NCBI GenBank assembly: GCA_914767715.1
Contig: OU612073.1
Span: 13,330,001 to 13,394,000 of the forward strand
DNA length: 64,000 nucleotides
Reading direction: 5' to 3'
DNA from: Membranipora membranacea
Taxonomy: Eukaryota > Bryozoa > Gymnolaemata > Cheilostomatida > Membraniporidae
In this document: piece after piece, positions 11,907 through 55,218 of the stretch
Layout: each line of letters begins with the position of its first letter
How positions within the stretch are numbered: the stretch's first letter is position 1
Program-made: the position numbers and the translations under genes
Notes under the pieces: model-generated
Database searches by the model: none
What the model saw: the letters and a program-made list of their open reading frames with translations, nothing else
What the model was told of the DNA's origin: nothing

Positions 11907-12937
11907 ATGTGAGTAGAGACTAGCTGTTAACCTTTCGTACTTTTGTATTTTCGTGGATAGTTACCTCCACCATCATTTAATAGTTTTATGTTATTCGATG
12001 GTAGATCGGTTGGTGTAACATGATTAGCACGATGCATATGTCTTATGGAAATAAATTAATATTATTTCAGGTGGTTTATCAGAGTCATATACATTTTAGC
12101 AACAATAACACTATGCGGAGTATTTTCTGCCAAAGGTTTGTCATATTCCTGCTATATTTTCTCCTCACAAGTTGATAATCAATGACACAGCTCTGTGAGC
12201 TGGTTGATGCCCGCTGGGCTCTGATTTACATGATATCAAATGAATGGAAATACATATAATTTATGCAGACGTTTCCATCATCTCTTACATGTTATGACTA
12301 AACGGCTTGACTTGTCCTAGAGGTTTCTTACTTGAGGTGCCCTTTGATTAACATGTCTGTTGATCAAATCAACTTGACAAATGATTGTAATGTTCCAGGA
12401 AGACTGAGAGGCGAGGAAACAATAAATGTACATGAAGATGAGTTTTGCAGTTCAGCCATCAATAGTGTCAAGATGACACCAGACATCTCAGACAATGTGA
12501 GATACTGTGTAGCAAAAAGTACAGGTAGCTCTGGAGAGCCACTTAGCCAGATCCGTATCACTGGCTCATGTGACCACTGTCTCATCATCTTCAATCATCA
12601 GAGTAATGGCATCGGTCCCTGTCAGTTCAACAAGACGGTTACTTATAATCAAGAGAAGGTATCATGTCCGGAACAGCGAGAATATTTCAGAGGGGAGAAA
12701 CTACTACTGCAGATCGCAAAGAAAATGCAACCGTCATTCAGTATCTCATTTGTAGGTAAGCCTCATTAAATATTAGTGCACTGATCTAGACTACCACCGG
12801 TAAACAGTTTATCTCAACCAAAGGAGAATTTTCTCTCTCCTCCCTTTTTTTTCTATGGGTGATGTGGTTCAGACACATTAATTTAGATCATCGATTTTCC
12901 GTCCCTGTTCTACTTCACTCATATCACTGGGTAGCCT

Positions 12938-12995
12938 GTCTTGACAAGCTTTGTTCGGTGGGTCCCTCCCTACCGAACAAAGCTTATTGTCTGTT
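12938..12995. repeat. short perfect-looking hairpin in intron 3 of receptor A
   Basis: The arms AAGCTTTGTTCGGT and ACCGAACAAAGCTT flank a loop of about 12 bases. This may be a tiny MITE or a target of one; there is no sign of coding or RNA function. Confidence 0.5.
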
Positions 12996-15900
12996 GAGAT
13001 ATTAGCCAGATAAATATTAATCCTCCAGATTTTCTTTATATCCTTGGTTTTCTGGAACCCGGCAAGTTACTATACCTGTTCTGACAAAGCTTCCCCATTG
13101 TTACTCAGCTTACCCAGTCGCTGTGATAATTGATAATGTGATAATTATTTGTGAAAAAAAGTATTGGGAATATCTACAAGTATCATGATTCGCCATGAGT
13201 GTAAAACTTTCCATTTCAAGTAACTTGTTTGCTTTGGCCTGTACTCGTAGGGAGAATTGATTCGAGAGGCTCAACAGAATGAGGGGGTATCTGTTCCATT
13301 TCATTCACTCCATGCATTCACTTTGTTGTTTAAACCCTTTGGAAAAATAATTTTGAAGACTACTGGTGGACAGAAGCAATATATAGTCTGGCAGCTAGTT
13401 CTGCAGTAATTATGTAATACTTCATGCACATTGAGAAAAAAGCTAGCACTTCAGTAGTTTTTAAGGGTCAATATTATCTAACTAAATCTAAATTCTTATT
13501 TTCTAATATTTTTTTGTTATTTCTTTCAGTTTATCCTGTGTTTCCATTTCCAATGTCAAACTCAAAGGGAAATAGCAGCGTCGATGCCACTCAAAACCCC
13601 GATGGGTGTATTACCAGTGACATAACCTTCAATAGACAACCCTACAATTACTCATCAACCAATTACATGAAAATGACAATTGATAATTTACCAGAAACTG
13701 CTATTATTACCATAGAAATGAATGGGATAAGTTTAGCTTCATCTTACATTCATGTTCTAGCCATCAGGAATGCAATAGATTTTTTTGACTTCACAAAGCG
13801 TTTTGTCAGGAATCCTCCAAAATAGACCTACTATTTCAATTAGAACAAGGAGATGACTCTGGTTATGACAAGCAAGTTATCTTCATCAAATACTCAGGTA
13901 TGTATGAAAATAAACAAGTGCATTGATCGATTACACTGACCGTATCACATTTCTCATGCTGAAAATTCTGGATGGAGAGACTTGGAAGTGCAAATTTCAG
14001 AAATGAAATGTTTTGGAAGAAGCTGTAGAGATTTTTGCACCAGCCTTTGTAAGAGCTACATTGTGCATTGTATAGTGATTAGGTAAACCAAACTTTAAAC
14101 TTGAACTTTGAACTTGCTAAATCACTCAAAATTTGTGTGCTTCTCAAGTAAGTAAGTGTTTCGATAATGAGATCCATTGACATGTAGCCTACAATGCAAT
14201 AGTTTGAAAAATATTCTCTGTTTTCACACTATGAATTATACATGTACTAATAAATCATTTTTAGTACGAGCATCATGCGATGAAAGTATTACAAATCTTA
14301 AAAAGCTGAACAGAATGGCAAATACAGATATTTACAATGCTTCATGCCTGGGTGAATTCAAACTTCTTCACGATGTAAAATCATACATCTGTAAAGATCA
14401 GCAATGGGATCCCCCACTTGAGTGTGTTGGTGATATAAAAAACTTAAGCACTACGACACTTCCGATGGTGTCTGATTTTGATGCAGGTAACAAAACTATA
14501 TTCATACTCAGTTTTTGATAAAAAATAAAGCAAGTCTGAACTACAAATAATTTACCATATAATATTTTGCGTTACATGGAAGCAGAAAATTAAACAGACA
14601 AATCGAGGTCTGCATCATCTCCTACTTGGCTCAAACAAATCATATAGAAAGTTACTCTGAAACCTCAAGCCTAACAAAATTACATTCAAGAGTGGTTTGG
14701 TAGTGCAACCACGATGCTATTGGAATGACCATTCTTTGTAATCCTTATGAAACCACTATTTGTTAGTTTCTAATCATCACACAGTATTTTTGGTTCAACT
14801 ATGAACTAGTATCGAAACGAAACTACCGTGCGATTATGGATCATCATTCAGTGTATACACATAATTAGCAATTGAGATAGTTTTGAAACAAACTTGCGAT
14901 TATATTAGTACTCATTGTGCATTAGTTTACATTGGGCCATTGACTAGCCTGGACTGGGTACAATGATGACCTAGCATTAAAATGAAACCACCGTGTATTT
15001 AAATACAATACAGTACCAATTAAGTTTGATACTGCATTGAAACCACCGTGGTATGTAAAAAGTTTCAGTACTAAACCAAAATTTATGAGTGTGTATAAAC
15101 CCATCAAAATGCATTGAGCTGTGAGAAAGAAAATAAGGGTCATCTGCTCTTTCTTTTTCTTTGTCATTTTGTTATTGACCAACATAATGGTTGTGAACTT
15201 TGGTTTAGGAAATTCATCATTCACCAGAGCTGTTTCTACTTGCTTACAGAATCTTCTGACAAGGGGTATGATATGGATCACAAGTATAAAATTGGAGTAC
15301 TGACTACCGACACTGTTGAATTGGAGACTAATACAACATTGACATCATCAGCTCCAATGATTTCAATTATTGGAACTTTTATTGGCTTGTTGACAGTATT
15401 TGCAGCGGTACTAGTTGTATACTGGTCTAGAGCGAGGTATGTGATAACGATGACATAAAATTAAAAACTATTCATCCTTGTGAGACACAAACAGCTTGTT
15501 GGAGCAAAAACTTTTCATCAATTATCTACCAGTTTCACATAAATTGAGCTGAAAGTAGGTTAGGCCCCGCCTAATCTATTACTCCCCAATAAAGCCTTAG
15601 TTAGCATGAGGAGATAGTTGAATCTAGTTGCTCACTTGCAGGTTTAAGATCCTGGAATTTGTTGGTTTTACCTCATGGTTGTACTAAGGTGACTGTCCAT
15701 GACGACTACTTTTGTAGACGCTACCAGAGCAGCCCCTTTTAGAGATAAGGGATAGATATCAATTATTCACTGTCTGTTTTGTATCATAACTACCACTAAC
15801 TCAATAGATATCCAAATTTACCATTAACTCAACATGTACAATTAACAAGTCTAGTTATTGAAAACTCTCAAAAATACTTTATTTTATGTCTATTAAAAGT

Positions 15901-16109
15901 CAAAGTTAAAACTAAGTTAACATTGTATACGTCAATACTCAACTATAAGTGTAAAACTCAACTAACTGACTCTCAATGAATATCAAAGTTCTCATTTATA
16001 TAGGCAGCGGTCACAACACCAGGTCTACATGGACACACAATCAAAAGGTACAAATCATATATAATGGTCCGATAAAATCATAATTGTCCGATAACAACAT
16101 AATTGCTGA

Positions 16110-16320
16110 ACTCTAAGATTAAAGTATTATATAACATTTTCTTGTGTAGGATGAACGAACAGGTAATTTGTTACGGCATAAAGGACTTTGTCTGTCTGGC
16201 AGCCAAGGATCAAGCCATTTGTTGAACTCTAAGATTAAAGTTTTATGTAACATTTTCTTCTGTAGGGTGAACAAACAGGTAATTTGTTGCGGCATCAAGG
16301 ACTTTGTCTGTCTGGCCGCT
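16110..16320. repeat. tandem duplication of about 116 bp
   Basis: The segment from CTCTAAGATTAAAGT through GGACTTTGTCTGTCTGGC occurs twice in direct orientation, starting near 16110 and 16227, with a few substitutions. It lies just after exon 7 of receptor A. An open frame covers it on the + strand, but no homologous domain is recognised. Confidence 0.65.
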
Positions 16321-17021
16321 GACTTATCATTTAAAGTTAATATTGTTACGTCAGGATCCATCCAGCGTCTGGCTCTAACTAGGTTATGTACAAAGACAAT
16401 ACAGAACTTCTTTGATCAATCCACAACAGAATTCAAGCTTGATTCTGTTGGACCAGGCCCTCTATTTACAGTTTTTTTCCATCATAAATCTTTTATTTTT
16501 TTAAAGAGATGCCGCCAATCAAAAACACACTCAACCAAGAGTTTAAGGTAAGCCTGTTCATTATCAAGTTAACATAAGTTTGACACAGAAATGTTATTTC
16601 TTTTTGCTTGTTGAACATATGTTGAGTAAAGTTACCATTAGAGAATCAAAGCTCTAAAAATTGAGCAGTTTTACCAATTGAGAGTATTTCTTCAGACACA
16701 GGAATTTAGACCTTCAGAGAATGGTGTGTCACAATAGATGGAATTGGTTGATTGTTTGACATGTATATATACTTTTTCATATAAAATAAATCTTTTTGGC
16801 CAGATTTTGAGTCATGGAAATACAAGGAAAACGAGTAGAAAACCCCATGCAAGGCAAAATTAAAATGTTTAATTATTTTTACTTGATATGTTAATATTTC
16901 CCTTTCAAATTTTCACTAACCATATTTGGGCCAAATTGGAGTTAATTTGTGGCTTGCAAACCATCCAAAACAGCGAATTAACACTCTTATTTATGAATGT
17001 ACTTCATTGTAAACTGGTTCA

Positions 17022-20000
17022 ACTATAGTAGTCAACGGACAGATCATCTTTTTTTTGACGGTTCGTGATATCGGAAGAACAAAGCTACACCATACATCAA
17101 ATCGAAGGGAATTTTCTCCTGAGTAAGAATATCAAGGTAGTAAAGAAAAAAATTTGGGGGGCGGCCATTTTTTTAAGCAAAACAAATTTTTTTTGGACTT
17201 TTTTGGGCCTGTTTCTCCCCGGGATGATAAATATATACTTCCAATGACTCAAAAATGTACATTTAGATGATATTTATCCATGTTTAAAAAATAAATTCTG
17301 TATCTCTAAAAAAATCACCAAAAATCCCTTAAACAAATTTAATTTTTGCAAAATGGTAGTTGTCTCCCCCGTTTCGGAATTTTTTCACTTTTTTGTAGTT
17401 TAACAAGGTTTTACTTCAACCAAATATTACACAGATGGGTCATGAGCAATCTGCCATATCCCAGAAGAGGTACAGCAGTCATAGTCACCCCAATCTGAAT
17501 ATACAGCCTTGTTTTAAGCTGGAAAGTCGAAGCAGACGTCGCACCCACAGCGACAAGACTGCGGCAAAAGTTCCCCCTCATATATGGCAGCTGCAAGCTT
17601 ACAATCTGCGTTGTGATGACCGGTAGTTGGTCGCTGTCAATTCCTCTAGATCTTTAAGAGCTGGGGGTAGTGCGGTGTATACTATCTTGCAGGCAGCCCC
17701 GGTAATCTCCCGCCGATGATCGTTGATTACAGATGGTTCCATTTTTTTCATTCTGGCTGGGCAATATCCCACTCGCTTGCCTAATAGTCAGAGAGACAGA
17801 CAGAGGATGAAAGTATCCTCTGTGCTCATCCTTCCCTGAGAATAGTTGGTGTCTGACAGACAATATGACAGGGTATTATAATTTTAGGTGCATGAGACTT
17901 GCACCACCGTTTCATGCAGTGCAGCTCCCTACGGGATGCAATTTTACGTTGGATCTTGAATTTGGTTTTTTTCATTTATAGAAACCTGGTACATTAATTT
18001 GATTATTATAAGATTTCGGTGAGGTTGCCAAAGAAAGCTTACATCAAGGGATTTTATATAGATTATCACCAGCTATATCTTGACCCCAAAATACAGCAAT
18101 GATTGGTCAGAACGCTAAATTAACTCTCGAAGCACTACAGCTTTAGCACACACTGGTGTAGCTGCTGAGTTGTTTAATTGTCGTTCTCCAATGATACCAA
18201 GGCACTATTGAGCAGTTCTTAGCCTGACTTTGAATTGCAGTCGCCCCTGTGTATTTGTCTCAATGACAACTTGCGCATGATTAGCCAATTTGTTCAGCCG
18301 ATGTGTGATGAAGAAACTTGTGTGAAATGTAACAAACCACCTGGCACAAGTTTTATCCCTCCTTGCTGTCCCTCCCCCACCCAAGCATTTCACATAAAGG
18401 GCAACTCAAGCACCGAAGCAACAGCATTGCATAGTATCTCGTCTGCCATGTTATTAGATGATTGAAGACTTCTTTGCTTTGCATTTGTTCGCTGCTTCTA
18501 CAAGAAAAGCTTGTCTTGCCATACTTTTAGCAATTTACATGAGCTCCATCAAGACCGTCCGTTCTTGGGAGATCGAGCAGCTTTTCACGCGGGCAGAGCT
18601 TCTTTTTTGGCATCGCCAATGAGTGCAGCTATGACATGGTTAGCTTGTTCGGGACCTATTTCAAAGCTGCATCAGCAGATAAGTCCCCACTCTTTGCGAC
18701 TCAACTTTTGAATTCAATGACGGCGCACTGCAGTTAAGGGAATATATATCAACCAATAAGGCACTTTCATTGCTAGCTCACAAAGTTTTGACAGCCATGA
18801 GTGAATGAAACTCAGAGTTTTGATACCCTCCACCGACATGTCCTGCTCTCAGAAGTATCCCATATGTGTTTAAACCATGTTCAATTGAGCACTTCAGGTC
18901 CTGCCTTGCATAATACAGAAAGATTTAGGTGATCAATAAGAATATGTTCTGAGGCAGGTACTATAAACGATTGGGTTCCTCAGTTATTTAAAAGTTCTGG
19001 GTCCGACTTTATCTCCATTTATCATAAATTCGAATTTACACTGCCCCTTTTATCTGTAACAGAATGATGGGATAAAATCGGAATAACAATTATACTGTTT
19101 TCAAAAATTGCCAAAACCCAAGTGTATTAATGCTAAACTGTATCATGATTTTTTATCAGCCTTTGGAATGTGTGAAACTGTGATGGTTTTTGGTTTATAT
19201 GGAACTTATTGAGATGTCAGGCAACGCAGATAAAGCCAGCACAAGTTTTTTATAACTATTTAAAAATCAGAAAGATTAACTTCATCCCAAACCCTTTTAA
19301 GAAATCAAACATTATAAATTGAAACTTTAATCTGCTCACAGAGAACATTTAACTCATTTAATCTAACTTCATTAGCAAACCGACACCCGTGAGCCTCCTA
19401 TCAAATGTCGGCCCTGTGGAACAAACTGCCCAACAACCTGGAATACAAAAAGACTCAGGCCACCTTTGGCACTCAGGTGCTACTTCCTGTCTTGAGGTGC
19501 TGACTTTTTTCATCACATATTTTTGCCACATCTCGTATGGTGTATGGACTGGTACCTCAAAAAACAAAAAACCTTAACATGCTGATTGCGCATGTTGGCC
19601 TTATCTCTGCCGCACCCAAATACATTCTAATTTCAAAATTTTTAATTTGTTGATGAAGTTGAAAACAAACATACCAAATCTTTGAGGCATGTATTAGAAT
19701 ATGTTCACCTACAGGATAAGGGTGTTGTTGGTTCGCTGGAGAAACCTGATTATAAATCGCTTGCCATTTGAATGCCTGGCTCTAGCGAGATCTTACTGCC
19801 ATATAAAAACTGTTTTAGGAATAGGTTACTTGACTTATAAAATACTATCTGATCTAGGCAGTCTGGTGTGAGACTCTTTTCATTATGTATTATTGGCAGT
19901 TGTTGTTGTATTGTGCCTCAATAGCTAGATGATCCTGATCAGACTGTGCTTGTAAATGACGACCGCACGTCTATCTGGTTTCTCTGTTGAACCTCAGTCA

Positions 20001-21262
20001 TACTAATAGACGCTTGAAAAATTTGTCGACTCACTTTCATTTTGTTGACAACGAAGAATATACACTTGGCCTCTCAAAAAGTTAAGGCTGACAACCAAAG
20101 ACGCAATTCTTGCAGTTCTTCGTTTCATACCCTACCCTATGTAAGAGATTGCCGTGTCAGCAAACCTGGAGACGGTTTGCTTGCTTGTGTAATATTTGTA
20201 GCATTTCTTAATGTAGCTCAGTGGCCTTTTGGGACAGTGCTCTATCAAGTTGTTACTAAACTGCTGGCCTGGGGGATCCTTGTGCATTTTAACTTTCAAG
20301 ACAATTCAATAAACATCGACATAAGAATAATTTGGTCATATCTCTGCGGTGCTACTCCAAAGACTATTCTTTTGGGATTTTGAATTTTGATGTAGGACTG
20401 CCTTGTCCGATCACAAATGTTGTTTTACCTTTTGAAGCTCTTATAATGACAGTAGGTTACTATACTTTCTTATACAATTTTTTAAAATTAGAGACAAGGT
20501 GACATCAGACAAAAATCTTAATCTTCAAAAATCGTTCCAATAATCAGCATTCATTGAATAGTGAAGGAAATTAATAATAACATATTTAAAGTTAAGCAGA
20601 GACAAAATTATGCTCAACCATGTTAAGAAGGGTGGCAGCAAGTTATTTATTCTAAATCTACATTTGGAAAATTAATTATATTCAAAGATCGGCAAGTGAA
20701 AATGCATTTGTAATTTGCTGTCGGGACAACTCCGAATAAATTCTTCGTATTTGAAATGACCATTGCTTAAAACATGTTTATTTTTTAGTTTTGAGACTCT
20801 CAGGAAGTGAAGCAAGCATGTGAATCTAGCCTCTGTACATTTTTTGAGTGAATCTGAAAAACGAAAAAAAAGTCCTCGTCTACAGTATAACCAAATCACA
20901 CTAATTTTTTGGTGCCCTCGAAATATCCGGCAGCATAATAATCCAAGAAAGTTTTTTCAACTATTTTTATGTCACTCACTATGTTTTAATCTAAAATAAC
21001 TGTGTAAACCAAATTTATTGTGATAGGAACACCCTCTGTGATGTGTAATGCAAATAGGTATATTTTTGACAAATTTGAAGTTTTCCTCTCTTTAACCCTC
21101 CGATTCAGGTGCGCCCCCCAATTTAATTTTTTTACTACCAAAATATTCTTATTCCCTAGAGTCTTAGCTTCGATTTGATATATAGTGGTGCTTTGTTCCT
21201 TCCGATATCACGAAACGCCTTAACGGAGCCACTTTTTAGGGATCTGTCCGTTGACTATAGTT
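17022..21262. mobile_element. 4.2 kb insertion with about 150 bp terminal inverted repeats, probably a decayed DNA transposon
   Basis: The left end from 17022 (ACTATAGTAGTCAACGGACA) is matched in reverse complement at the right end up to 21262. Further shared blocks are TTCGTGATATCGGAAG, ATCAAATCGAAG and TTGGGGGGCG, covering roughly 150 bp per arm with visible divergence. The interior has only short, broken frames (for example 20042-20383 and 18235-18465 on the + strand), none of which I can match to a transposase, so the superfamily is open. The insertion explains much of the unusual length of the last intron of receptor A and ends only 160 bp from the nested gene. Confidence 0.6.
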
Positions 21263-21423
21263 TTGTCTGGTCCCATAAATATAAGACGACACACACATAC
21301 ATGTTAAATATGACCCAAATCAGGACAGTAAGTACAGCAAAAAGTAACTCTACTCTTAAAAAGGATTGACATTAGTAATCGTCTGACATTTTGAAAACAA
21401 GGCCACTTGGTGCCTAAAAATGT

Positions 21424-22371
21424 TTAATTATTAGGTTTGTCGTTTGTTGCCTTGGCAGGCTTACAATCATATGCTACAAAATAGGGCCAAAAGTCATCTC
21501 CATCACTTCGTTTCATACTTTTGAGATTCTTACTTCCCATATAGTTGAGCAGTAAGTCCCTTTTATCACCGCGTATGTAGTCTTCTGGACAAAGCCGGCA
21601 ACTACAACTCCTATTGTCATCTCCCAGCCAGGCAAATATTTCATATCTTATTCCATTGGGGCTGAACTTCATACAAATATCGTCACATTCCCAGACAGAT
21701 ATCCTTCTCTTTGCAGGAGTCAGCCAATACATGTCTAAAAATAAATTAATACTTAGATAACTGCATTATCCATGTGAGATATAATCTTTCCCATCCATGA
21801 TTGTGTAGTTTAACACTGGAGTTAACAAAGAATTAAAACAGTAGGGCTCAGTGACCCACTGCATGCTGAAGAATAATAGCAAAATAATGAGTGCCTTTAG
21901 GGCAAGGCCCCGATATCTTTGCGTATCTGATCTCAACTTGTATGCAAGTCAGAGCAAACCTGGGGTCGAACAGTTGTCGGTGATCTGCAGTTGGATTTTC
22001 ATTAATGACCTTCAACTTCTGCATGCTCAGGTGTTCTAATCAACCAAGAATCATCTTACTGTTTGCAATACACAACTAAACCACTACACTGTGAACATTC
22101 CGACCTGCCTGGAAACTGAGAGTAACTTGGCGCCGAATATGGCGGCCAACTTTATTTCTCAGTCTTCGGACAGAGACAGACTTGCGATTTAAACCAACAA
22201 ATTGAGACTAACAACACAAAAACACTGCATTCCCCTAGTCTTACTCTGAGACTCACCTGGAATTGTATGATAGGATGTGTTGCATGTCCGGAATCTACTG
22301 TAGTCCAGTTCAGCATAAGCTAATGAAGCAATGGCAAGAATAACTACCAAAATATTTTGCGCTTCCTTCAT
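21424..22371 (-). CDS. nested CPEDY-family cysteine-rich secreted protein, unit A
   Basis: Two exons on the minus strand inside the last intron of receptor A. Exon 1 (22371-22257) starts MKEAQNILVVILAIASLAYA, a signal peptide, and ends in phase 1 at CCAG/GTGAG. Exon 2 (21734-21424) follows TTTTTAG and begins DMYWLTP. The 141-residue product keeps the core CSCRLCPEDYIRGDK. It has seven cysteines after the signal peptide: the one after MG is replaced by serine (MGSKN). An in-frame ATG lies upstream at 22404, but 22371 aligns with the start in the other copies and lies about 80 bp from a TATA element. No known family is recognised with confidence; the C-x3-C, aromatic stretch and CxC spacing faintly recall WSC-type modules. 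The receptor around it is broken while this gene is open. Confidence 0.8.
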
Positions 22372-22450
22372 CGTGAATGTAACTGAGAACATAAGCCCTT
22401 TCAATTATCGATCATAACAGACTCTGATTTACTGTATCAATCATCATCAG

Positions 22451-22460
22451 TTTTATATCC
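22451..22460 (-). promoter_or_regulatory. TATA element of nested gene A
   Basis: The minus strand reads GGATATAAAA about 80 bp before the ATG at 22371, the same distance as in the other nested genes. The GGATTA element just upstream in the other units is degenerate here (AGATTGAA). Confidence 0.5.
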
Positions 22461-22781
22461 CCGGAGGTTCAATCTCTGCGTCTCACTAATCACAATAAAT
22501 CAGTGTTTATTGCCGTTTCACCAAGAGGTTTAGTATTTGTGGTGAAAAGTCAAGTCTTGCACTGTCACCAGGATTGGTTTAAATGGCGCCTAATACCTAT
22601 TGTTACATGACTGTAATATTTAGATGAAATGAGTTAGAAGTCTGCACCGATTTTGGAATAAAACTGGGGCAAGTTCTTGTGTAGCCAGAGTGCATATGTG
22701 CAATGTATTGACAAACATAACTGGACTAAGGACTTTGCAGAAAGAGCATAAACATAGATGTTATCAATAGGATGAGATTTA

Positions 22782-23258
22782 TGGTAATGTAATGTAATGT
22801 AATGTAATGTAATGTAATGTAATGCAATCTAATACAATGTAATGCAATGTAGTGCAATGTAATACAATGTAATGCAATGTTATGCGATGTAATGTAATGT
22901 AATGTAATGTAATGCAATGTAATGCAATGTAATAAATGTGATGCAATACAATGCAATACAATACAATACAATGCAATTCAAAGTAATGTAGTACAATACA
23001 ATGCAATGCAACGCAATGCAATTTAATGCAATGTGATGCAATGTAATGCAATGTAATGTAATATCATGCATTGTAATGCAATGTGATTCAATTTAATGCG
23101 ATGTAATGCGATGTAATTCGATGTTATGCGATGTAATGCGATTTAATGCGATGTAATGTGATGTAATGCAATATAATGCAATGTAATGCAATATACTGCA
23201 ATGTAATGCAATGTAATGTAATGTAATGTCATGCAATGTAATGCAATGTAATGTAATT
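22782..23258. repeat. pentanucleotide satellite (AATGT/AATGC)n
   Basis: Almost 480 bp of imperfect five-base units, mainly AATGT and AATGC with AATAC variants. Several overlapping open frames rich in H, I, L, C and Y on the minus strand are products of the repeat, not genes. It lies 135 bp before the tail exon of receptor A. Confidence 0.95.
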
Positions 23259-23658
23259 ATCTCCTTTACAATCTTTATTTTCACCTGTACTGCTTACTGG
23301 CAGTTAAGCTGCTGATGAATACTATTTTATGTACAGATCCACTCCACATAGCTTTAACTTAATCATACTCACCGATATTTTGTTTTATTCAGATTGCAAC
23401 GAAGAGGCTGAAATAACAGAAGGGAACATCGATACTGTGTCAGATTATGAATTCATAGAGCAAACGGATCCCTATCTTGATTATTGTGAGATAGATGAGA
23501 GGGATATGATTAGTGATTTGGACCGAAGTTTTTCCCCAAGTGACTCCGAAAAAACTGCGCCCAGTAGATTATCTACTGAGGACACAGATTCACACCTTAG
23601 GTCTGATCCATCATTAGCTGAAAACTTAAAAATTCCTTCGCCAAATTTGATGGGTTGA

Positions 23659-26756: not shown

Positions 26757-26765
26757 TATAAAAAT
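26757..26765 (+). promoter_or_regulatory. TATA box of receptor B
   Basis: GAGTATAAAAATA lies 58 bp before the split start codon. The same element at the same distance precedes receptor C (38532-38540), and it falls in a short deletion in receptor D. Confidence 0.6.
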
Positions 26766-38590: not shown

Positions 38591-41500
38591 ATGTGAGTAG
38601 AAATGTATTGTTTAGTATTTTGCATTTTGAATATCCTAATTATCCTACTCTATGCATGCTACGCGTCTAACATATATTTTTGAATGGTTTGAAATGTCGA
38701 TGCATATGTTGTTACAAGCCATGATTCCAAGCACTGTACATACTTCATGAACTGATTAGTAAAATTATAAATTTCAGGTTGTGCATCAGAATTGCTGAAA
38801 CTTTCATCATTATAATGACATCATATGGAGTATTATGTACACGAGGTTGGTTTTTATCTTGATTTAAATATGTAAGCATAATAATAAATCGTTTTCTAAG
38901 ATTAGTGACCCTGTGGTTTCAATCAACAGTAATAAATAAATGATAAATAACTGTGGTTAGACACTTGTGACCATGCTAGCAATCTGCAGTGGGTATGTGA
39001 TCATGTTGTCTTTTTTCCTTGATTGAATTTACATAATTAATGATTAAATCTCATTTGGAATGTTTTGCCATCCTCACATGTGGTTTGGTAAGGCTGTAAT
39101 TTGTTTGAATCGATGTCACAGACAAAAAGTGCCGCTTTTGTAAATCAGCTCAGTAAATTCTCTGTATCATCTTAAATGACTGCAATGTTTTAGGAGGTTT
39201 GACAGGAGAGACAAAGATCGATGTAGATGATGTTGAGGTTTGCCGCTCAACCAGCACTAGCGATGCCAAAATCACAGCGGAAACACAGACAGCAGTGAGA
39301 CATTGTGCTGTGCGGATTTCAGGGAACCGAACCGAGGTTGATATGCGTCTTATCCGGGTTATTGGGTCTTGTGAGAGTTGTGTTCTTGTCTTCAGTCAGC
39401 AGAGTAATGACAGCAGTCACTGTCTCTTGAACAGAACAATAACAAGTAATGCAGAGAATGGATCCTGCCCACAACAGAGAGAATACTTTAAAGGGGAGGT
39501 TGATCTACTACTGCAGATGGAAGAACAAGTACATCCAATAATTCTTATCAAGTTTGCAGGTAATTTTGCGATGATCTTTTGGTGCCCCACAAGAATCGTA
39601 AGTTCACTGGCTAAATGGCTTGGATCAAAATCATCATGAGTGTGTAAATGGGTTGTTTAACTATAACTTACAATTGATATTTTGTCAATTTTTTGCAGTT
39701 TATCATGTGTCTCCGTTCGTAAAATCATCAGATAATAGAATGAGTCAAATAGATGCCACTCAATTCCCTGACGGATACTTCACTAATGACCCGACATTTC
39801 AAGGACAGGACAACAATCTCACATCAGAAAGTCTAATGGGGGCGTCACTCGTGAACTTACCGCTGTCAGCAACTGTGACCGTAGACATTTATCAATTTGA
39901 TGCAGTACTACCTAACCTTCAAAAATTTATCATCGTAAACGGAGTTGAAATTCTTGACTTACATAATAATAAGTATAGCAAAGATAAACCACTGAAGTTA
40001 TCTGGCTCCCCTGTAATCGGTTTTCTTTACCAAACTGTAGAAGGATATGATCTGCAAGATGAGATGATCCACATCAGATACTCAGGTATCTATCAATGAA
40101 TTTTTCATTTTGTGTAGGTATTGATTAAAGTGCCAACTCCCCCTTGGTATGTGTCAACTATACATGGGAAGTGGAACAATTGTAACTGATAATAAATGAT
40201 AACTAATAATTGTAAATTTTAACATATATTATGATTTAATATTTTTCACCTAACCTCATAAATGCATATGATAGTACGATAAATACCTTTTTTTTTATTT
40301 TATAGTACAAAAATGTAATATCAACATAACACACTTGGACATGCTAGAGATAAAAGAGACATCAGGTTTGGGGTCTCGACAATACACAGCCTCTTGTCTC
40401 AAAGGATTCAGCCTTCTTCACAAGGTTGACACATTCCACTGTGAAGATCAACAATGGAATCCCCCGATCGAATGCGTTAATGATGGTGTTACCCACATCT
40501 CAAGGGATCAAATACAAGTGAAATGTACAGGCACTACAATTATTCCTGCTTATTTTTTCCCCCAGAATGTATTATTACTACTGACAAAAAGGAAATGATT
40601 GAAGATTAATAAATATTTTCTCAGAGAGATTTGAATTACTTGATTTGCTACCAATTATTCCACGCATTAAGTTTATAGGCACCTTTACCCTCCACAGGTG
40701 GCATTGCACAATTTACCCTTACAGATCTACTCGATCGAATTGTAATGAGTCTATCAAATAAAATAATGAGTTATGTGCTCTTGTCAAAGAACCAAAATAT
40801 CAAATATTCACTGAGCAATCATTAATTTTCTTGCAGCGACAGAGTTGAATGGTGAAGTGAAGGATGGAGGACAACATGAAAGACATATTGAGGCAGCAAC
40901 AAAAAAGGATACAGAAGCAACCTCTTCAACATCAGCTCCCATTACTTCAATTATTGCTATCACCCTGAGCTTGATGACAGCTGTCTCGATGCTACTGATT
41001 CTATACTGTTATAAAGTGAGGTAAGTGTCTATAGTTCAAACATTGAACCATTTCGACTATCTGCATAGTCATCATTTTGCAAATATTTCGTTTCTGTGAA
41101 GCTTTTAAAGTTGTCTTTTTCCATCTTGCTAGCAATTTGTTTTGCACTGTTTGGATACAAGTGCAAATAATCATCACTGGGACATGGGGAAGAATAAGCA
41201 ATACAGTCATGACATTTACAGATGGTCAGCATCTACTTTTTTAGATAGGACAATTTACCAAATGATACACACTCATTTTAACTCTTGAGACTGAGACTGA
41301 TACACAAAAAACCTGGATGTACTTTTAATATGGATCCATATTATAATATTGATAACAGGTGGCCTCAAATCATTTTGATCATGTATATTCTTTCTCATAT
41401 ATTTTCATGTCTAGGATCAAAGACGACATACCTGCCATGCAAATTCTAGCGCAACCAAGAGTACAAGGTTGGTCAGCTACCCACACCTTATTTATTTCTA

Positions 41501-43745
41501 ACAAAATATTAGTTTAGCACAGTTAATTAGACAACATAGCACTTAGAATATATGTAGTTTAGTGAGTTTATTAGGGATGTAGTGGCTTTCAAATTCATTG
41601 TTGACCAGAGTGATTGATAGACAGTCTGCTTGTTCTTAAGTATATTATATTATCTTTTATTTAATATTATACAGGAAAGGGATAGATTGTACTGTGAATT
41701 GTACTGTAATTAATTCAACAAATATCATACCAATTCTGTAAAAACAGTATAGCAAAATTGCCAAAAAATATGGTGTATGAGAAAATTTATTCATAAAATT
41801 TTGGAAAAATTCAAGCTGATGATGCTGGTCTCCTAAAAACCGTTCTTGAATTGCGATAAAACTTGAAATAGATAGCTCCCTCAGGCTTGCAGTAATAGGT
41901 AAGGAGGGGCCTGAAATGGTAATTCATCTCACTTTTCATACTACCGACATCTCTGCATCCCATAAGGTCTAGCAATAAATTCAGTTTATCACCGACCAAG
42001 TAATCCTCTGGACACAGCCTACAGGCGCATCTCTTGTTATCATCGCCGGGATAGGCAAATATATTAGTCCCATTAGTGCCAAAATGTTTTTGACACGTGT
42101 CAAGACAGACGAAGATATTTATAAATTCTTTCTCAGGAGCCAACCAATACATGTCTAAAAGAATAAGAAATACTTATGGGTATGCTTACACAATAACAAT
42201 CAACTAGTTAAAGATCTATACAAACCCAATTTTGATATGGATGAAATGAAAGAAGGCTGCTCCGCATAACAAATAACAATCTACTAAAGAGGAAATGGTT
42301 GACGGTTTGAATTCAGCAGGATGTGTGGTGCAGGTCCTAGTATACTTACTTGGATAATTAGTGTCAGGTTGTTTACATCTCCGGATTTTTGTTATGCTTT
42401 GAGCTCCTGCATGAAGTAGGGAGATGATGACAAAAGTTATCACAAAAATGAATCTAGCTCCGCTCATTCTACAAACTGAACTGAAAGGAAATCAATCCTG
42501 ATCGACGATAGATTACGATGTGCTTTGATTTAGGCACTCCTTTTGCTTTTATATCTCTGGAGGACTAATCCTAGGTCCTCATTGGTAATCACTTATTGAT
42601 CTGTGCCGTTGTGGTTTTTTTAAGAAGGTTAGAAGTATGTGGGGATATATTCAAGTATCATAACGTCAACGGGGACAGTAAGCAGATGTCTAAATTCTCA
42701 TTATTCACAATCATTTTTATGGCATGCATTTCATGTTTTTCATCCATCAAATATCTCGTAATCCACCCCTGTTTGTCTATGGCTGAAATAAGCATTCCCA
42801 CACACAACCACTGTTTTCTGTGACTTTGTGACAAGGCTAGGTTCAAGTGATGAGATTCAAATTAGCATTGAATGAGTGGTGTAAAAAGAATTCTCTGTGT
42901 TAATAAGTGTATTTGCAATGTTATTTATTGGGTGAACAAGTTGCAATAGAATATCTTGGAGCAAAAGTAACAAATAATTAAAGTACAATATTCATCTAGT
43001 TTATCACAGTTACATGATTTAATTTTCGGCCATCATGAAGCCGGAGCATACACATTCTTGTAATACTCACATAACATGTTTTTTAAATCTAGATTTCGAC
43101 GAAGAGACTGCCAGGACGGAACGAAATATTAATTCTGTGTCAGATTATGAGGTTATCGAGAAAACTGATCCTTATCTGGATTACTGTGAAATAGACGAGT
43201 ACAATATGATGAGTGATGTGAACCGAAGTACCTCTGTGTGTGAATCCAAAAGATCTGAAACAACAACTGAGGAGGACACTAATGCAGACTTGGTCTCTGA
43301 ACCGTCATTTCCTGAGAACTTAAAAGTTCCTTCTTCGGATTTGTTAAACTCTATCTCGCGAGAATTTAGTAAAAGAGGTGTAAGTATTCAGAACAAACTT
43401 AAGTGTTCGGGGTTCTCTGACAAAGTAAGACCAAATTACAGAGCAAAAAGGAAGATGCCTAATACACCTCCGATGCCTTGTCGGGGGCCAAGAGGCTTGC
43501 GAGTCTTTGCCAAGAGACCACAAACAATTGTGGCTGAGGTGCATATAAACAGTTCTGAAGCAGACGATAATAAAATTCTACAAACTAGGCATCAACGTCA
43601 ACCTGTCCCCGAAAGAGGGTCTGAGGCCCATCCGAGTGCAAACCAATATAGCAGCTCGGCAATCAGAAGCTGTGATTTTGAAGATGCCCTCAGTGTTTAC
43701 CGAGTGTATACTCTTGATGATCATGAAACTCTGTATTTTTTATGA
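38591..43745 (+). CDS. receptor C: complete ITAM-tailed six-Cys/CUB-like/sushi receptor
   Basis: Reference copy of the array. Exons: 38591-38592 (AT), 38778-38845, 39194-39559, 39699-40085, 40306-40524, 40837-41020, 41415-41467 and 43093-43745, joining in frame to 643 codons plus stop. Rough residue map: signal peptide 1-24; six-cysteine domain 24-146 (NRT, NDS and NGS glycosylation sites); CUB-like domain without cysteine 146-275; sushi 275-340 (four cysteines, WNPPIEC); stalk; membrane segment about 380-405; basic exon; tail 427-643. The tail has YEVI, eight residues, YCEI (445-460), then YNMM (a YxxM), PPMPCR (about 552-557) and a C-terminal SCDFEDALSVYRVYTLDD. ITAMs recruit Syk-type kinases, YxxM recruits PI3-kinase, and PxxPxR binds SH3 domains. 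The donor of exon 5 (AAAT/GTACAG) is the weakest border. Function is inferred as an activating surface receptor. Confidence 0.85.
40306..40524 (+). other. sushi/CCP exon of receptor C
   Basis: A phase 1-1 exon with four cysteines in CCP order: C-N-I-N, ASC, FHC and EC preceded by W-N-P-P-I. ASCLKGFSLLHKV is the usual mid-domain stretch. Homologous exons are at 14265-14486, 28688-28918, 51281-51502 and 52072-52274. CCP modules mediate protein-protein binding in complement factors and adhesion receptors. Confidence 0.75.
41811..42467 (-). CDS. nested CPEDY-family cysteine-rich secreted protein, unit C
   Basis: Two exons on the minus strand inside intron 7 of receptor C. Exon 1 (42467-42350) starts MSGARFIFVITFVIISLLHA and ends in phase 1 at CCAA/GTAAGT, so the joining residue is Asn instead of Asp. 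Exon 2 (42154-41811) runs from MYWLAPEKEF to a stop after RRPASSA. The product has 153 residues and eight cysteines after the signal peptide, with CACRLCPEDYLVGDK, MGC and YYCKPEG. The C-terminal basic extension (FKFYRNSRTVFRR) is longer than in units B and D. No transmembrane segment after the signal peptide, so probably secreted. The family is unrecognised. Confidence 0.85.
42546..42585 (-). promoter_or_regulatory. promoter of nested gene C
   Basis: On the minus strand: CCAAT (42581-42585), GGATTA (42566-42571) and ATATAAAAG (42546-42554). TATA lies about 80 bp before the ATG at 42467. The segment ACCTAGGATTAGTCCTCC is identical in unit B. Confidence 0.6.
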
Positions 43746-48205: not shown

Positions 48206-48300
48206 ATGTGAGTAGAAACTTATAGTTAGGTTTTTTTGCACTTTGAATATCTCAATGGTTACCATTTTTACTCCCCGAGTTACCTCTCACCTCCCTCACG

Positions 48301-48393
48301 CTATGCATGCTATGCATGCTATGCATGCTATGCATGCTATGCATGCTATGCATGCTATGCATGCTATGCATGCTATGCATGCTATGCATGCTA
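48301..48393. repeat. nine-base microsatellite (CTATGCATG)n
   Basis: About ten near-perfect copies of CTATGCATG in intron 1 of receptor D. The open frame with repeated CYA residues across it is a product of the repeat. Units B and C have a single ATGCATTC- or ATGCATGC-like site here, so the array expanded locally. Confidence 0.95.
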
Positions 48394-49640
48394 TCTATTG
48401 TGTCTAATGGGAATACCAAGAGTGATAGTATATGTTTGAATGGTTTGAATTGTCAACAAATATGTTGTTACGAGCCATAATTCCGAGCTTTGTACACCTT
48501 TCACTGATTGGAAACACTCTGCCTGCAGGATAGCCTTGTGGCATTGTCTATCTCTGCAGCACAGCAGTGGTGGCGCTGCCTTCCATCAAAAAAGGCAACT
48601 CCCAGGGTTCAAGGTTATGAGATATCAAAACCAGTGTTCCATTTAAGCCAGATTATTTCTAAATTATGGGTTTCCATTGTTCGGGTACTCAGACTAGGTG
48701 AATTAGTTCAAGCCCTATGCTGCAGAGACAAACGTATGCCTCAACAGCTCGCACATGCGCAGAGTGGATTGAAAATATTATAAATTTCAGGTTGTGCATC
48801 AGAATTGCTGAAACTTTCATCATTATAATGACATTATATGGAGTATTGTGTGCACAAGGTTGGTTTTAATCTTGATTAATATATGTTAGACTAATAATAA
48901 ATCATACTTTCAAGGTTTTGGTCCCTGTGGTTTTGATCACCAAGAAATGAAAACTTGATTAATGAAAGTAAAAAAAAAATTGTGGTCAAAGTCTTGTCGC
49001 TGCACTAGTAATCTGCAGTGAGTCTGTGATGACATTTACATGCTTCTATAAATCAGCTCTTCTTATTTCAAATGACTGCATTTTTTTAGGAGGTTTGAGA
49101 GAAGAGACAAGGTTTGATATAGATGATGCCGAGGTTAGCAACTCATCAAACGACAGTGATACCAAAGTAACAACGGAAAGCCAGTCAACAGTAAGACATT
49201 GTGCTGGAGGGATTTCAGGGAAACGAACCAAGATGAATATGCATAAGATCCAGATCGTTGGGTCTTGTGGCAGATGTGTTCTTGCCTTCAATCAACAGAG
49301 TTATGACAACAGTCACTGCCTCTGGAACAGAACAATAACAAATAATACAGAGAATGGATCATGCCCACAACAGAGAGAATCCTTTAGTGGTGAAGTTGAT
49401 CTACTACTGCAGATTGAAGACCATATCCAACCTGGATACCTCACTAAATTTGAAGGTAATTTTAAGATGAGGATCATGAATTTCGACTGATATACTTCCT
49501 AACATTGAAAATTTGCTGTATCACACCTTTCTACATGCATGATATGAGTATTTCAATCCCTAAAGCACTGGCCATCAAAACTTAATGCAATCCAGCTGGT
49601 GTGGTGGTATGACATCATGACTGGAAGTTTAAATATTCTT

Positions 49641-50052
49641 AAACCACTGCTGACACAGCTGGGCTTTGCCCAGCAGTGCCACAAGTCAAACATTTAAATA
49701 GAGAGTTGTGGCATCAAAACATCTAGCCAGTAGCTTTGAATGGAGTTATATGAGCTCTCAAAATGTAAGGAGTATCTCCTTCCCCAGCCATCCACCATTA
49801 GTGATCACATATGTTGAGGTTGACCAATCAGGTTTGATCCCAGTTAGATATTAAAGGCACCTGATTGGTCAACCTCAACATATGTCATCACTAATGGTGG
49901 ATGGCTGGGGAAGAAAATACTCCTTACATTTTGAGAGCTCATATAACTCCATTCAAAGCTACTGGCTAGATGTTTTGATGCCACAACTCTCTATTTAAAT
50001 TTTTGACTGGTGGCTATGCTGGGCAAAGCCCAGCTGTGGCAGCAGTGGTTTA
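49641..50052. mobile_element. large palindrome, about 190 bp arms, foldback MITE
   Basis: The arms run from AAACCACTGCTG (49641) to GACCAATCAGGT (49833) and, inverted, from ACCTGATTGGTC (49859) to GCAGTGGTTT (50052), with about 25 bp between. Each arm also contains a nested GCTGGGCTTTGCCCAGC palindrome. It occupies intron 3 of receptor D and is absent from that intron in A, B and C, so it inserted after unit duplication. Confidence 0.85.
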
Positions 50053-51059
50053 AGTCTATACTAATATTGACATTATAAATACTGATGATATGAATCAGGG
50101 CTGCATTCATGGGTTTTTATATGATAGGGCCAAGCAGGAAGGGTGTGGGAGAGGTGCTGTAGGGCCAAGATTTGTGCGCTGGCCAAATCTCACACCATCT
50201 GATCCCAATGCTCTCCAATGTTCTTATACAATATTTAGATTCTGAACTGAAACTTGTCTGCATATCAGTAAAACTAGGCAAAAAACATGCGATGCCATTC
50301 AATTTTTTTTCAATAATAGGAGTTTGAAAGCTGAAACTTGTCCGCTTATCAGTCAAGGCATGTCAACGAAGAAAATGTCAACAGTATATCACATCGATAG
50401 AAATTAGTTTGCTGGCTCATAAAAAATCTTGTGACACATTTCACTTATTTGTGTTTTTCATAGGCTCGCTAGTCGTATGGTGAGCGTCAATTTTGGGTAA
50501 AAATCTTCCTCGAACAATCTCAGTAAAATCTTATAAATTCTCTTGCAGTATATCATGTGTTTCGGTTCTCAATTTCACAATATAAAGGCCTGATTGATGC
50601 CAGCGTATACCCCGATGGATACATCAAAAATGATCCCAGCTTCAAAAGAGAAGCCAACATTAAACATTAAATTGGGCATTAAACAGCGACATGTCGGCAG
50701 CACTTACGAATCTGCCAGTAGCAGGGACTGTTACTGTTGAAATATTTCAGGTAGAGCCGATACTACCGAACCTTCAGAAACTGAACATCAAAAACAATCA
50801 CAATTTGCACAACTTGGCCAATCGAAATGAAAAGAAACGCCTGCTGACCTTTCTTGGCCCGTTTATAATCTCATTGATTTACCAGACAGTGCAAGAATAT
50901 GATCTAAAAGGTGAAATGATACACATAAGATACTCCGGAATGAATGCATTTATCATAATTTGAATTGACAATCATTGGGTCCCTGGTCACACAGTTGCCT
51001 AAAATTACTGTGAATTGTACCCATGATATAATTAGATTTGTTGTGTTGGACAGGTTAGA

Positions 51060-51120
51060 CGATTAATAGCTATACATACATACATACATACCATACATAC
51101 ATATATATATATATATATGT
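51060..51120. repeat. microsatellite (CATA)n and (AT)n
   Basis: CATACATACATAC followed by an AT run, inside the intron before the first sushi exon of receptor D. A shorter TATATATA run at 51597-51610 lies at the matching place in the duplicated copy. Confidence 0.9.
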
Positions 51121-53415
51121 AAATATAACTATAAATATTCCAATTCTAAATATATAATAGATAATTATCTGACCAGAAAAAGACCAGTAGCAGTGCCAAT
51201 AATTTGTATGGTATGTTATGATATATTATTCCTTACCTCACTTAATAAATTTAAATTATGATGAATGTTTTTATTTTTAGTTAGACCGTGTAATACCAAC
51301 ATACAACATCTGAACAAGCATGTGTTCATCAGTTTGGGTTCTTTGCAATACACAGCCTCTTGACTGGATTGGTTCCAACTAAGTCACAAGGTCAAGACAC
51401 TCCAGTGCAACAATCAGCAATGGTACCCTCCCCTGGAATGCTTTGGTGTTGCCAAAAATGCAGGTGTTTCCAACAGCTCAAGAATTCAAACACATGAGAC
51501 TGGTATAGGTGTTTAATTTTTTCCTTCCTTGTTGCTTGGACAGTACTATGACATGAAAAATGTATTGGACAGGTTGTGTGATTTATAGCTATACATTATA
51601 TATATATATAGCGTTAGCTACGAACTGAAAAGACTACCACTTATAGTCTATAACAAAAGACCAAACCTTTACCACGTTGACAGACTATATGATGAGTGAC
51701 GATAACTTGCTATCATTGTATCATGTAAGACTGTATTTTACCTCTTAAGGTTTGTCCTATCTGAAATATGCTATCACAACCCTTTAACATGGAACATTTG
51801 TTTAAAGGAAAGGTGCTCCCCTCACAAACAATTAGGAGAGATAATACCATTCTTAGATTTCATATATCTCTTATTTCTACCTAAAAGCGCATAGGCACTG
51901 GTAAAATGCATTTTTAAATCTTTCTAGGTATCAGTTGCAAGATAGCAGCGATGCATAGTTGAATTTACTGGCGTATGCTGCAGTAGCAGTGTCTATAATT
52001 TGTATGATCTGCTATGATACATTATTCCTTACCTAACAAATTTAAATTATGATAAATGTTTTTATTTATAGTTAGGTTGTGTGATACCAACATACCACAT
52101 CTGATCAAAAATGATTTCATCAGTTGGGGTTCTCAGCAATACACAGCCTCTTGTCTTGATGGGTTCCAACTGAGTCACATAGTCAACACATTCCATTGTA
52201 AAGATCAGCATGGTATCCCCCGCTGGGATGCTTTGGTGTTTCAAACAACTCAAGAATTCAAACACACGAGACAGGTACAGTAATTTTTCCTTTCCTGTTG
52301 CTTGGTCAGAATTATGACATGTTATAAGGCTTGAAACTTGATGTGCTCGGTGTAATAATGCATATCACATGCATTCAAGTTATAGGCTCCCTCTCTTGTG
52401 AAATGACACTGCACCATTTGGTCTTATATGTACAACTTCACGCCATGGCTCATCAAAGAAAAGTCTCTAGTTTCGAATGAAATTTTATTTGGAATATTTC
52501 GGTTGTCAAAGGTCTTTTCTAGCGGGACTGAGGGGAAAATCAGACTAAAAATTGAATATTTATCAATCAATCATCTTAATCATCAATATTCATTTTAGCA
52601 GTGACAACCGACTCTGGTTATAACCGAAATCACAGGTCTGATGATACTGAACAGTCTGATAACCATGCCGAGAATACGAAAAGTGATACAGAGTCTCCAT
52701 CATCACCTCTTATTATTTCCATCATTGGAGCCACTCTGAGCTTGCTGACAGTTGTTGCAATGTTGACTATTTCACTCCGTTATGAACTTAGGTAACATAA
52801 ATAGGTATCAGCATCAATACGAAAATTTAAATTTAAATATATGCGTAGTCAGTAATCTAAAAACTGTATTACACTAATCACAAAAAGGCAAACATATCTA
52901 CCCTTTGCAAAGAATTTATTTTTCGGCGGTTTTAGTTTGTTCGGAATTTGGGGTGCGAATAGGTGCCTGTGCATTAGATGATGAGATAATTGTATAAGGA
53001 CACCATCGGTCACCACAGCGCTAAATACTTGGCACCCCAACACACCAACAACATATCTATATACCTCCAGTTTGGTCTCATTAATCAACTGTTGGGCAAA
53101 CTATAGCTTGTAGGTGTCTCAAAATTTCTAAATATTTACAATCTTTTTTCCAGATCTAGAAACAGAGATAAAGCACCTGCCGGCCAAATAAACACTCAAC
53201 CGGGAGTACAAGGTACGTCAGCTCTCCGTTGCAGATTTAATCAACAACCTCACATGCCATATAGTAGTTCTAACAGGCATTGTAAGCCCTTGTGAAACAA
53301 TTGGACTGTTTATGTATTGTAATGTATTGTTTTGTAATTAATCATTATCATGAAATATGTTTGAAAAGCCAAAAAATTGATTTATGAAAATTTAAAATTC
53401 AACAAATCAGGTCCC

Positions 53416-54009
53416 CTAAAAATTGTAATTAATTACATGTTTGATATATACATCTCCCTCAGGTTTGCAGGAATATGTGCGAAGGCCACCAAAGTCTTTT
53501 GTATTCATTTCCATACTATTGGCATCGATGCATCCCATCAGGTTCAGCAGTCTGTTCAGTCTATTACCACGCATGTAGTCCTCTGGACAGAGCCGGCAGG
53601 CACACCTTCGGTCATCAAGAGCGAGATTGGCAAATATACTTATCTCGTCAGTGCCAAAATTATCTTGACAACTGTCAATGCAGTCAGAGAATGATATAAA
53701 CACTTTCTCCGTTTGGGCCAACCAATACATGTCTAAAAACGAATAATAGATGTTATCAATATCTTATACTATCAATTTGTGAAAGATCAACTTTAACGTA
53801 TGTATATGTTAGCAAATAAAGTATGCAAGCTAAGCAATTTAAAAAAGTAGACATAGATGACTTAGGTTTTCAAAGAGTGCATGCAGCTCCCATAAGAACT
53901 CACCTGGTTTTTGAGTAGAAAATCGATTACAAGTCCGTAGTCCAGCTTTTGCATGATGTAATGAGATGATGGCAAGAGTTACAACGAAAATTAGTCTAGT
54001 TCCTCTCAT
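53416..54009 (-). CDS. nested CPEDY-family cysteine-rich secreted protein, unit D
   Basis: Two exons on the minus strand in intron 7 of receptor D. Exon 1 (54009-53904) starts MRGTRLIFVVTLAIISLHHA and ends CCAG/GTGAG in phase 1. Exon 2 (53732-53416) runs from DMYWLAQTEKVF to a stop after HVINYNF. The product has 140 residues with eight cysteines after the signal peptide, including CACRLCPEDYMRGNR, MGC and SCKPEGDVY. It stays open although the surrounding receptor is damaged, as in unit A. Closest to the pseudogene at 9.5-10.1 kb. Confidence 0.85.
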
Positions 54010-54101
54010 ACTTCATCAAAACTAAAACTGGAAAACAAAATCAATTCTTATCAATGATAGATCACTCTGTGTTGTGATTTACATAGAAAGATTTCTTTAT
54101 T

Positions 54102-54125
54102 TTTATATGATTGGAGGACTAATCC
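54102..54125 (-). promoter_or_regulatory. promoter of nested gene D
   Basis: The minus strand has GGATTA (54120-54125) followed by ATATAAAAA (54102-54108 region) about 95 bp before the ATG at 54009. The CCAAT box seen in units B and C is not preserved. Confidence 0.5.
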
Positions 54126-55218
54126 AAGATGTATTGATCCGTGCTCGTTGTGGTTTTGTTAAGAAGGTTACAAATTTGTGGTGATAGATTCACGTATCAT
54201 AATGGCAATGGGGACAGTATGGCAGATAGTTAAAACCTCATTTGATACAATCTTAGTATGCATGCAATCTTTTGACGGCAAGCTCGAGGGTAAAATGTTA
54301 ATAATGCAGTCAATGTTTTTTTGAAGCGTCTTATCGCCAAGAAATATCAAATTAGTGGTATTCTTGTAGTCCACCCCTGTTTGTATGTTGCTCAAGTAAG
54401 CGTTCCCGCATAACTTCTGTTTTGTGTGGCTGCCTGAAAAGGCTAGGTTGAAGTGATGTGATAAAGTTAGCTTTGAATGAATTGTGTAGAGTAAAATCCC
54501 TGTTCCAATGATTATCTTATTTCAAATATAATTTACTGGATGAACTAGTTGCAATGGTTGATTTTGAGGTATAATAAAATGATGATTAAGAGTGTGATAT
54601 TCACCTGGTTGTACACAGGTACATGATTTAATTTTTGACCATCATGAAGCCAAAAGTCAAAAATTCTTTTAATACTGACATCCTTCTTTTTTTTATTTAG
54701 ATTTCAACGAAGAGACTAATAGAGAGAATAGAAAAGATTCTGTGTCAGATTATGAATTTATAGAGAAAACTGATCCTTATCTGGATTATTGTGAGATAGA
54801 CGAGTACAATATGATGAGTGATATAAACCGAAGCATCTCTGTGTGTGACTCCAAAAGATCTGAAACAACAACTGGGGAGAACACCAATACAGACTTGGTC
54901 TCTGAACTGTCATTTCCTGAGAACTTAAAAGTTCCTTCTTCAGATTTGTTAAACTCTATCTCGCGAGAATTTAGTAAAAGAGGTGTAAATATACATAACA
55001 AACTAAATTGTTCGGAGTTCTCTGACAAAGTTAGACCAAATTATGTAGCAAAAGGGAAGATGCCTAAAACACCTCCGATGCCTTGTCGGGAGTCCAGAGG
55101 CTTGCGAGTCCTTGCCCACAGACCACAAACAATTGTGGCTGAGGTGCATATAAACAGTTCTGAAGCAGAGCACAATAAAATTCTACAAACTGGGCATCAA
55201 CATCAACCTGTCCAGTAA

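Follow-up and report, generated by a model that had tools for sequence, protein, structure and literature searches.

Receptor genes of the bryozoan Membranipora membranacea carry a small secreted cysteine-rich gene on the opposite strand of their last intron

The 64,000-nucleotide stretch analysed here (the window) covers positions 13330001-13394000 of chromosome 9 (C9) in assembly tzMemMemb1.1 of the colonial bryozoan Membranipora membranacea (PMC10290214). It houses four receptor genes, A to D, in direct orientation on the forward strand, and intron 7 of each contains one intact two-exon gene on the opposite strand whose product is predicted to be secreted. An earlier note on this DNA had described such an array between 11907 and 55218, and reading the genes exon by exon confirmed both the orientation of the receptors and the minus-strand gene in each intron 7. 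The start given there coincides exactly with the A of the split start codon of receptor A, and all four units lie inside that range, which leaves out two decayed copies of the nested gene (6041-6640, forward strand; 9541-10133, reverse strand). The genes are as follows, in window coordinates, with ITAM standing for immunoreceptor tyrosine-based activation motif.

Receptor A (looks disabled), 11907-23655, forward: first two bases of the start codon 11907-11908; 12071-12135; 12399-12755; 13530-13897 (frame break); 14265-14486 (sushi); 15250-15436 (transmembrane); about 16507-16547 (weak, probable stop); 23393-23655 (ITAM tail, early stop).
Receptor B, 26815-32227, forward: first two bases of the start codon 26815-26816, where exon 1 ends; 27032-27096; 27437-27793; 27946-28314; 28688-28918; 29133-29319; 29973-30025; 31851-32227 (tail with an early stop, first ITAM tyrosine replaced by phenylalanine).
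Receptor C (complete), 38591-43745, forward: first two bases of the start codon 38591-38592, where exon 1 ends; exon 2 (signal peptide) 38778-38845; exon 3 39194-39559; exon 4 39699-40085; exon 5 (sushi) 40306-40485; exon 6 (stalk and transmembrane) 40837-41020; exon 7 41415-41467; exon 8 (ITAM tail) 43093-43745.
Receptor D (looks disabled), 48206-55218, forward: first two bases of the start codon 48206-48207, where exon 1 ends; 48791-48858; 49090-49455; 50549-50937 (frame break, donor GA); sushi copies 51281-51502 and 52072-52274; 52599-52791; 53154-53212; ITAM tail 54701-55218.
Nested gene A, 21424-22371, reverse: exon 1 22257-22371, exon 2 21424-21734; 141 amino acids, 7 cysteines, intact.
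Nested gene B, 30270-31101, reverse: exon 1 30993-31101, exon 2 30270-30571; 136 amino acids, 8 cysteines, intact.
Nested gene C, 41811-42467, reverse: exon 1 42350-42467, exon 2 41811-42154; 153 amino acids, 8 cysteines, intact; TATA variant 86 bp upstream of the ATG.
Nested gene D, 53416-54009, reverse: exon 1 53904-54009, exon 2 53416-53732; 140 amino acids, 8 cysteines, intact.

The four receptors share an eight-exon layout that predicts a type I membrane protein with a signal peptide, two domains of about 120 amino acids, a sushi domain, a transmembrane segment and a tail. Receptor C is the only one of the four that can be read by splice-site logic through all eight exons, which have consensus splice sites and would encode 630 amino acids. 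The start codon is split by intron 1, with AT as the last two bases of exon 1 and G as the first of exon 2, and this junction recurs in all four receptors; exon 2 would encode the signal peptide, exons 3, 4 and 5 are each in phase 1-1, exon 6 would supply the stalk and transmembrane segment, and a short exon 7 precedes the tail exon 8. The sushi assignment of exon 5 comes from the Pfam Sushi family, found in three of eight exon-5 copies (best E 4e-4; copy C itself matched no family), and from a profile match to complement factor H at 3.4e-5. Exons 3 and 4 matched no family in Pfam or PDB profile searches, the best chance matches lying at E of at least 0.15 (PDB) and at 0.04 (Pfam); no immunoglobulin (Ig) domain was matched for either exon in the same searches, and a structure model of exon 3 (predicted local distance difference test score 36) was too poor for comparison with a V-type Ig domain. 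Receptor C had no match at E 0.001 among 5728 protein database candidates. Of the four receptor genes, C reads as intact. Receptor A looks disabled: the frame of its exon 4 is broken, its tail stops early, and its weakly recognised exon 7 probably contains a stop. Receptor D looks disabled as well, as exon 4 has a broken frame and has lost its donor and the second sushi exon is broken too. Receptor B has a premature stop in its tail.

The nested genes bear out the description of their products as secreted and cysteine-rich, with a predicted signal peptide from exon 1 and 7 or 8 cysteines in each of the four. Their donors read GTGAGT or GTAAGT in phase 1, and the acceptor is AG followed by AC. 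They also appear to have promoters of their own: a TATA variant lies 60-140 bp upstream of the ATG in all 20 nested genes whose first exon could be read, compared with 15% of random windows (29 genes were taken, nine of them without a readable first exon, and the copies were picked by a pattern that implies the G of the AG acceptor). The nested exon matched no family in Pfam or PDB profiles, SHC matches at E 0.3 being taken as chance, and nested protein C found two short database proteins, 85% and 57% identical, among four candidates. The cysteine-stabilised alpha-beta fold is defined by a CxxxC motif in a helix and a CxC motif in a strand, in the order beta-alpha-beta-beta, and exon 2 of nested gene C is predicted, from its sequence and a structure model, to have these defensin-type features. 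An alternative reading, which we regard as rather doubtful, is that the nested gene encodes a secreted immune effector, a defensin-like antimicrobial or opsonin, and no ligand, and that it stays in the receptor locus so that one block would supply both sensor and effector.

The A-D array represents a small fraction of a family that is spread over the genome. A single tail query gave 102 matches in 74 loci, and two nested-gene queries gave 108 loci. An opposite-strand nested exon 2 lies 480-1651 bp (median 1013) upstream of the tail at 63 of the 74 tail loci, on eight chromosomes, and a same-strand one at none of the 74. Four of the 11 unpaired tail loci (L060, L061, L066 and L067) were read by hand, and all four contain an opposite-strand nested gene, that of L067 being frameshifted; at the remaining seven, some of which are short fragments, the search found none and they were not read by hand. 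The exon order at L059-L062 matches that of the window (exon 4, sushi, transmembrane, opposite-strand nested gene, tail), and the layout is kept in three divergent loci whose nested exons are 25-32% and tails 23-39% identical to those of unit C. In a self-comparison of the window, copies of receptor exon 3 reach E 5e-65 and copies of nested exon 2 reach 1e-28 among the matches listed, and this strength, together with the genome-wide recurrence of the layout, argues that the array is not a product of chance. A separate cluster at C2:24.098-24.286 Mb (L064) comprises at least 13 divergent nested-type genes on a single strand, with receptor hosts not evident for each.

The coding sequence of the nested genes is, judging from codon comparisons, mostly under purifying selection, with a median ratio of non-synonymous to synonymous substitution (dN/dS) of 0.38 for exon 2 (181 pairs with dS 0.05-1 among 25 copies). 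Of the seven cysteines in exon 2, six do not vary among these copies, one of the six being implied by the selection pattern, as the copies used for dN/dS and conservation were picked by a pattern that contains the last cysteine; the most variable sites of exon 2 include positions 14-24, 68-71 and 78-83. Unit L012 compared with three others gives dN/dS of 1.0-1.38, on too few sites to conclude positive selection.

These data bear on the possibility that the nested gene is a passenger, a secreted-protein gene trapped once in an intron of an ancestral receptor and copied along ever since, the two products being unrelated. Intron-nested genes are common in animals, a single event can account for all copies, and linkage by itself would produce the correlation between nested and tail distances (Mantel r 0.77 over 18 units). 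A passenger should, however, have gone missing from some receptors, whereas 67 of the 74 tail loci have the nested gene, the other seven being those where the search found none; the mostly purifying selection also speaks against a mere passenger, though an independent secreted gene would show that too. We hold this explanation to be unlikely. A regulatory role of the nesting, in which antisense transcription of the nested gene stops or reroutes that of the receptor, leaving the receptor silent or turning it into a decoy without a tail, and the secreted product is secondary, would fit the TATA boxes of the nested genes and their position between the transmembrane and tail exons, kept in all eight units read exon by exon (A-D and L059-L062); it leaves the purifying selection and fixed cysteines of the nested protein unexplained. 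We consider it very improbable.

The receptor tail suggests what kind of receptor the nested gene is tied to. The ITAM, here YxxI-x8-YxxI, is found in 23 of 24 distinct tails; these were chosen by a pattern around its second tyrosine, so that only the first tyrosine provides an unbiased test. Two of three further tails read beyond the 24 also have it, and in unit B phenylalanine replaces the first tyrosine. In an alignment of tail C with four tails that share 23-50% identity with it, the ITAM positions Y19, I22, Y31 and I34 are among the invariant columns, and chance matches arise in 2.3% of shuffled trials of tail C, or 0.8% when only I or L is allowed. The YxxI-x8-YxxI spacing is common to vertebrate ITAM-bearing receptors and the bryozoan tails, which differ in that the ITAM lies in the receptor's own tail, that YxxM stands behind it in 14 of the 24 tails, and that ectodomain domains 1 and 2 belong to no known family. 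The first half of the ITAM also fits S-x-Y-x-x-I, the consensus of the immunoreceptor tyrosine-based inhibition motif (ITIM), so the motif does not fix the sign of the output. The genome has 44 SH2 exon matches, with one tandem pair at C9:12128300-12134300; this tandem-SH2 gene at 12.128-12.134 Mb resembles SHP-2.

Of the readings considered we favour, at a probability of roughly 0.45, that of an ITAM recognition receptor co-inherited with its own secreted partner. The host gene would give a type I receptor with two family-specific domains and a sushi domain outside and an ITAM tail, often then YxxM; clustering of this receptor would lead to phosphorylation of the tail and then to recruitment of tandem-SH2 signalling proteins. 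The gene in the last intron, read from the other strand and from its own TATA-type promoter, would yield a small secreted protein with a constant cysteine frame and variable positions, serving as the receptor's own partner, be it a ligand, a soluble co-receptor or a self-marker. The nesting would cause the pair to be inherited and duplicated as one haplotype block. What the sequence itself establishes is the structure of the genes, their nesting and orientation, the TATA boxes, selection on the coding sequence and the ITAM consensus. On this reading the two products would further bind each other, be matched between alleles, have an immune-type output and act in self/non-self or pathogen recognition.

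Several observations weigh against this reading. In units A and D the receptor is broken and the nested gene intact, and two further nested copies lie in decayed units, which indicates that a nested gene can outlive its host receptor and weakens the idea of an obligate pair. Solo nested genes thus exist: the first query gave 63 nested loci, and for 12 of these no tail was found. Nine of the 12 belong to the home cluster (C9:13.24-13.42 Mb), in which the search would be expected to pick up a tail. With both queries, 45 of 108 nested loci lack a tail by the single tail query; two of these were read, and L064 is ambiguous whereas L065 does have a tail, in which the first ITAM half is lost (YENF). 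Nested-type matches at C3:26751894-26752151 and C3:26827328-26827444 lie on the 3' side of a tail (within 2 kb) and on the same strand. Moreover, all units arose by duplication, so that their shared orientation reflects one event and not 67; since a single origin would suffice for all copies, the weight of the result rests on retention through deep divergence and not on repeated invention. Overall dN/dS is below 1.

The covariation of the two genes is open to a similar objection. Divergence of the nested gene correlates with that of receptor exon 4 (r 0.89) and exon 3 (r 0.84) and less strongly, at r 0.72, with that of the nearer tail exon (12 of 14 units, the other two being without a needed exon), and the correlation with exon 4 persists given the tail (partial Mantel 0.85, p 0.0002). 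Nested divergence goes along with that of the sushi exon as well, however, at r 0.85 (11 of 14 units, three lacking a needed exon), which makes homogenisation of the tail an equal explanation of the exon correlations. The correlation between nested gene and ectodomain may thus reflect shared history, the tail having possibly been homogenised, and we make no claim of co-adaptation from distance correlations since the sushi exon correlates as well. The earlier proposal that nesting locks receptor and partner together is borne out for the genes: the nested gene sits in the intron ahead of the signalling tail, has the opposite orientation in every pair found and is kept across deeply diverged paralogs. 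A strict pairing is weakened by receptors A and D, which look dead beside intact nested genes, and by the tail-less nested loci of the first query. The proposed recognition role, be it in allorecognition, between gametes or towards pathogens, draws support from a tail ITAM as in recognition receptors.

The remaining features of the window are the decayed units and four neighbouring elements.

Decayed inverted unit, 5208-6640: tail remnant on the reverse strand (5208-5309) and nested-type gene on the forward strand (6041-6640) with an altered C-terminus.
Decayed nested-type copy, 9541-10133, reverse: DNA 75% identical to nested gene D over 683 bp, with an in-frame stop; no tail exon was found for this copy.
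Open frame, 7683-8885, forward, between the two decayed nested copies: 400 amino acids, part of which match a reverse transcriptase domain (RVT_1 in Pfam, 4.8e-31).
Tandem repeat of short period, 22726-23260, within intron 7 of unit A, open on the reverse strand.
Additional copy of the receptor 3' end (tail end and downstream region), 57665-58870, past unit D.
Large inverted repeat, 60070-60950 and 63136-64000, with highly similar arms of about 0.9 kb, reaching the end of the window.

The closest parallel in gene arrangement is the s-Themis/v-Themis system of Ciona, in which the gene for an egg-coat partner lies on the opposite strand in an intron of a receptor-like gene and the two form a haplotype block (PMC7018956). 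The bryozoan partner gene is likewise on the opposite strand of a receptor intron, but there are about 70 loci and the last intron is used, as opposed to three gene pairs and the first intron in Ciona (PMC7018956). The earlier note had stated that the protein families differ from Themis, and a Pfam scan of receptors B and C and nested protein C indeed found neither polycystin-1-like nor fibrinogen-like families; a sushi/ITAM receptor and a small cysteine-rich protein here stand against a polycystin-1-like and a fibrinogen-like protein there. Polymorphism of Themis has been demonstrated in Ciona, whereas the bryozoan pairs were read from one haplotype. Given the distance between ascidian and bryozoan, the likeness is best regarded as analogy and not homology.

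In protein architecture the bryozoan receptors resemble fester and the fester co-receptors (FcoR) of Botryllus, large clusters of type I receptors with sushi domains and ITIM or hemITAM tails that are inherited as gene pairs (PMC12065747): they too are predicted type I proteins with a sushi domain and tyrosine-motif tails, in paired inheritance. The Botryllus pairs differ in being neighbours that both encode membrane proteins, and FcoRs have Ig domains; the words 'nested' and 'intron' do not occur in the main text of that review. Homology to a fester-like tunicate family of the fuhc system was considered and dropped, the host being a bryozoan whose mitochondrial COX1 (contig C18) reads AGR codons as serine, not glycine; these codons fall at positions that are serine in solved COX1 (NNMSFW, FSWL), against the ascidian code. 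A search for GH6 came up empty, but it did so in the control genomes too and carries no weight. In the S-locus of Brassica, SRK and SCR (SP11) place a receptor and a small secreted cysteine-rich defensin-type ligand in one haplotype. That system differs from the bryozoan one in belonging to a plant and in having a receptor kinase, neighbouring rather than nested genes and a single locus.

Fusion and self/non-self recognition have been reported in bryozoans (PMC3549757, PMC12018476, PMC11686985), and the only bryozoan molecular candidate that we met in the literature is a remark on sequences weakly resembling Alr1 in the genome of Bugula neritina (PMC7576161). Our searches of the open-access literature, most subscription papers being outside its scope, showed no report of this family. 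We think it unlikely, although worth stating, that the family is a bryozoan repertoire, about a hundred genes strong, of ITAM receptors that are each paired with an antisense defensin-shaped secreted partner, and that it forms the basis of colony self/non-self recognition; such a repertoire would have arisen independently of those of vertebrates, tunicates and cnidarians, and every duplication and haplotype would carry a matched pair. The family provides a concrete, physically linked set of receptors and partners in an animal for which polyA RNA-seq data from the same specimen (ERR6464929) and a second haplotype (GCA_914767555.1) are deposited. If the pairs bind, they would amount to recognition by nested pairs on the scale of a multigene family, and would bear directly on the question of how a receptor and its matched ligand are kept together as they diversify.

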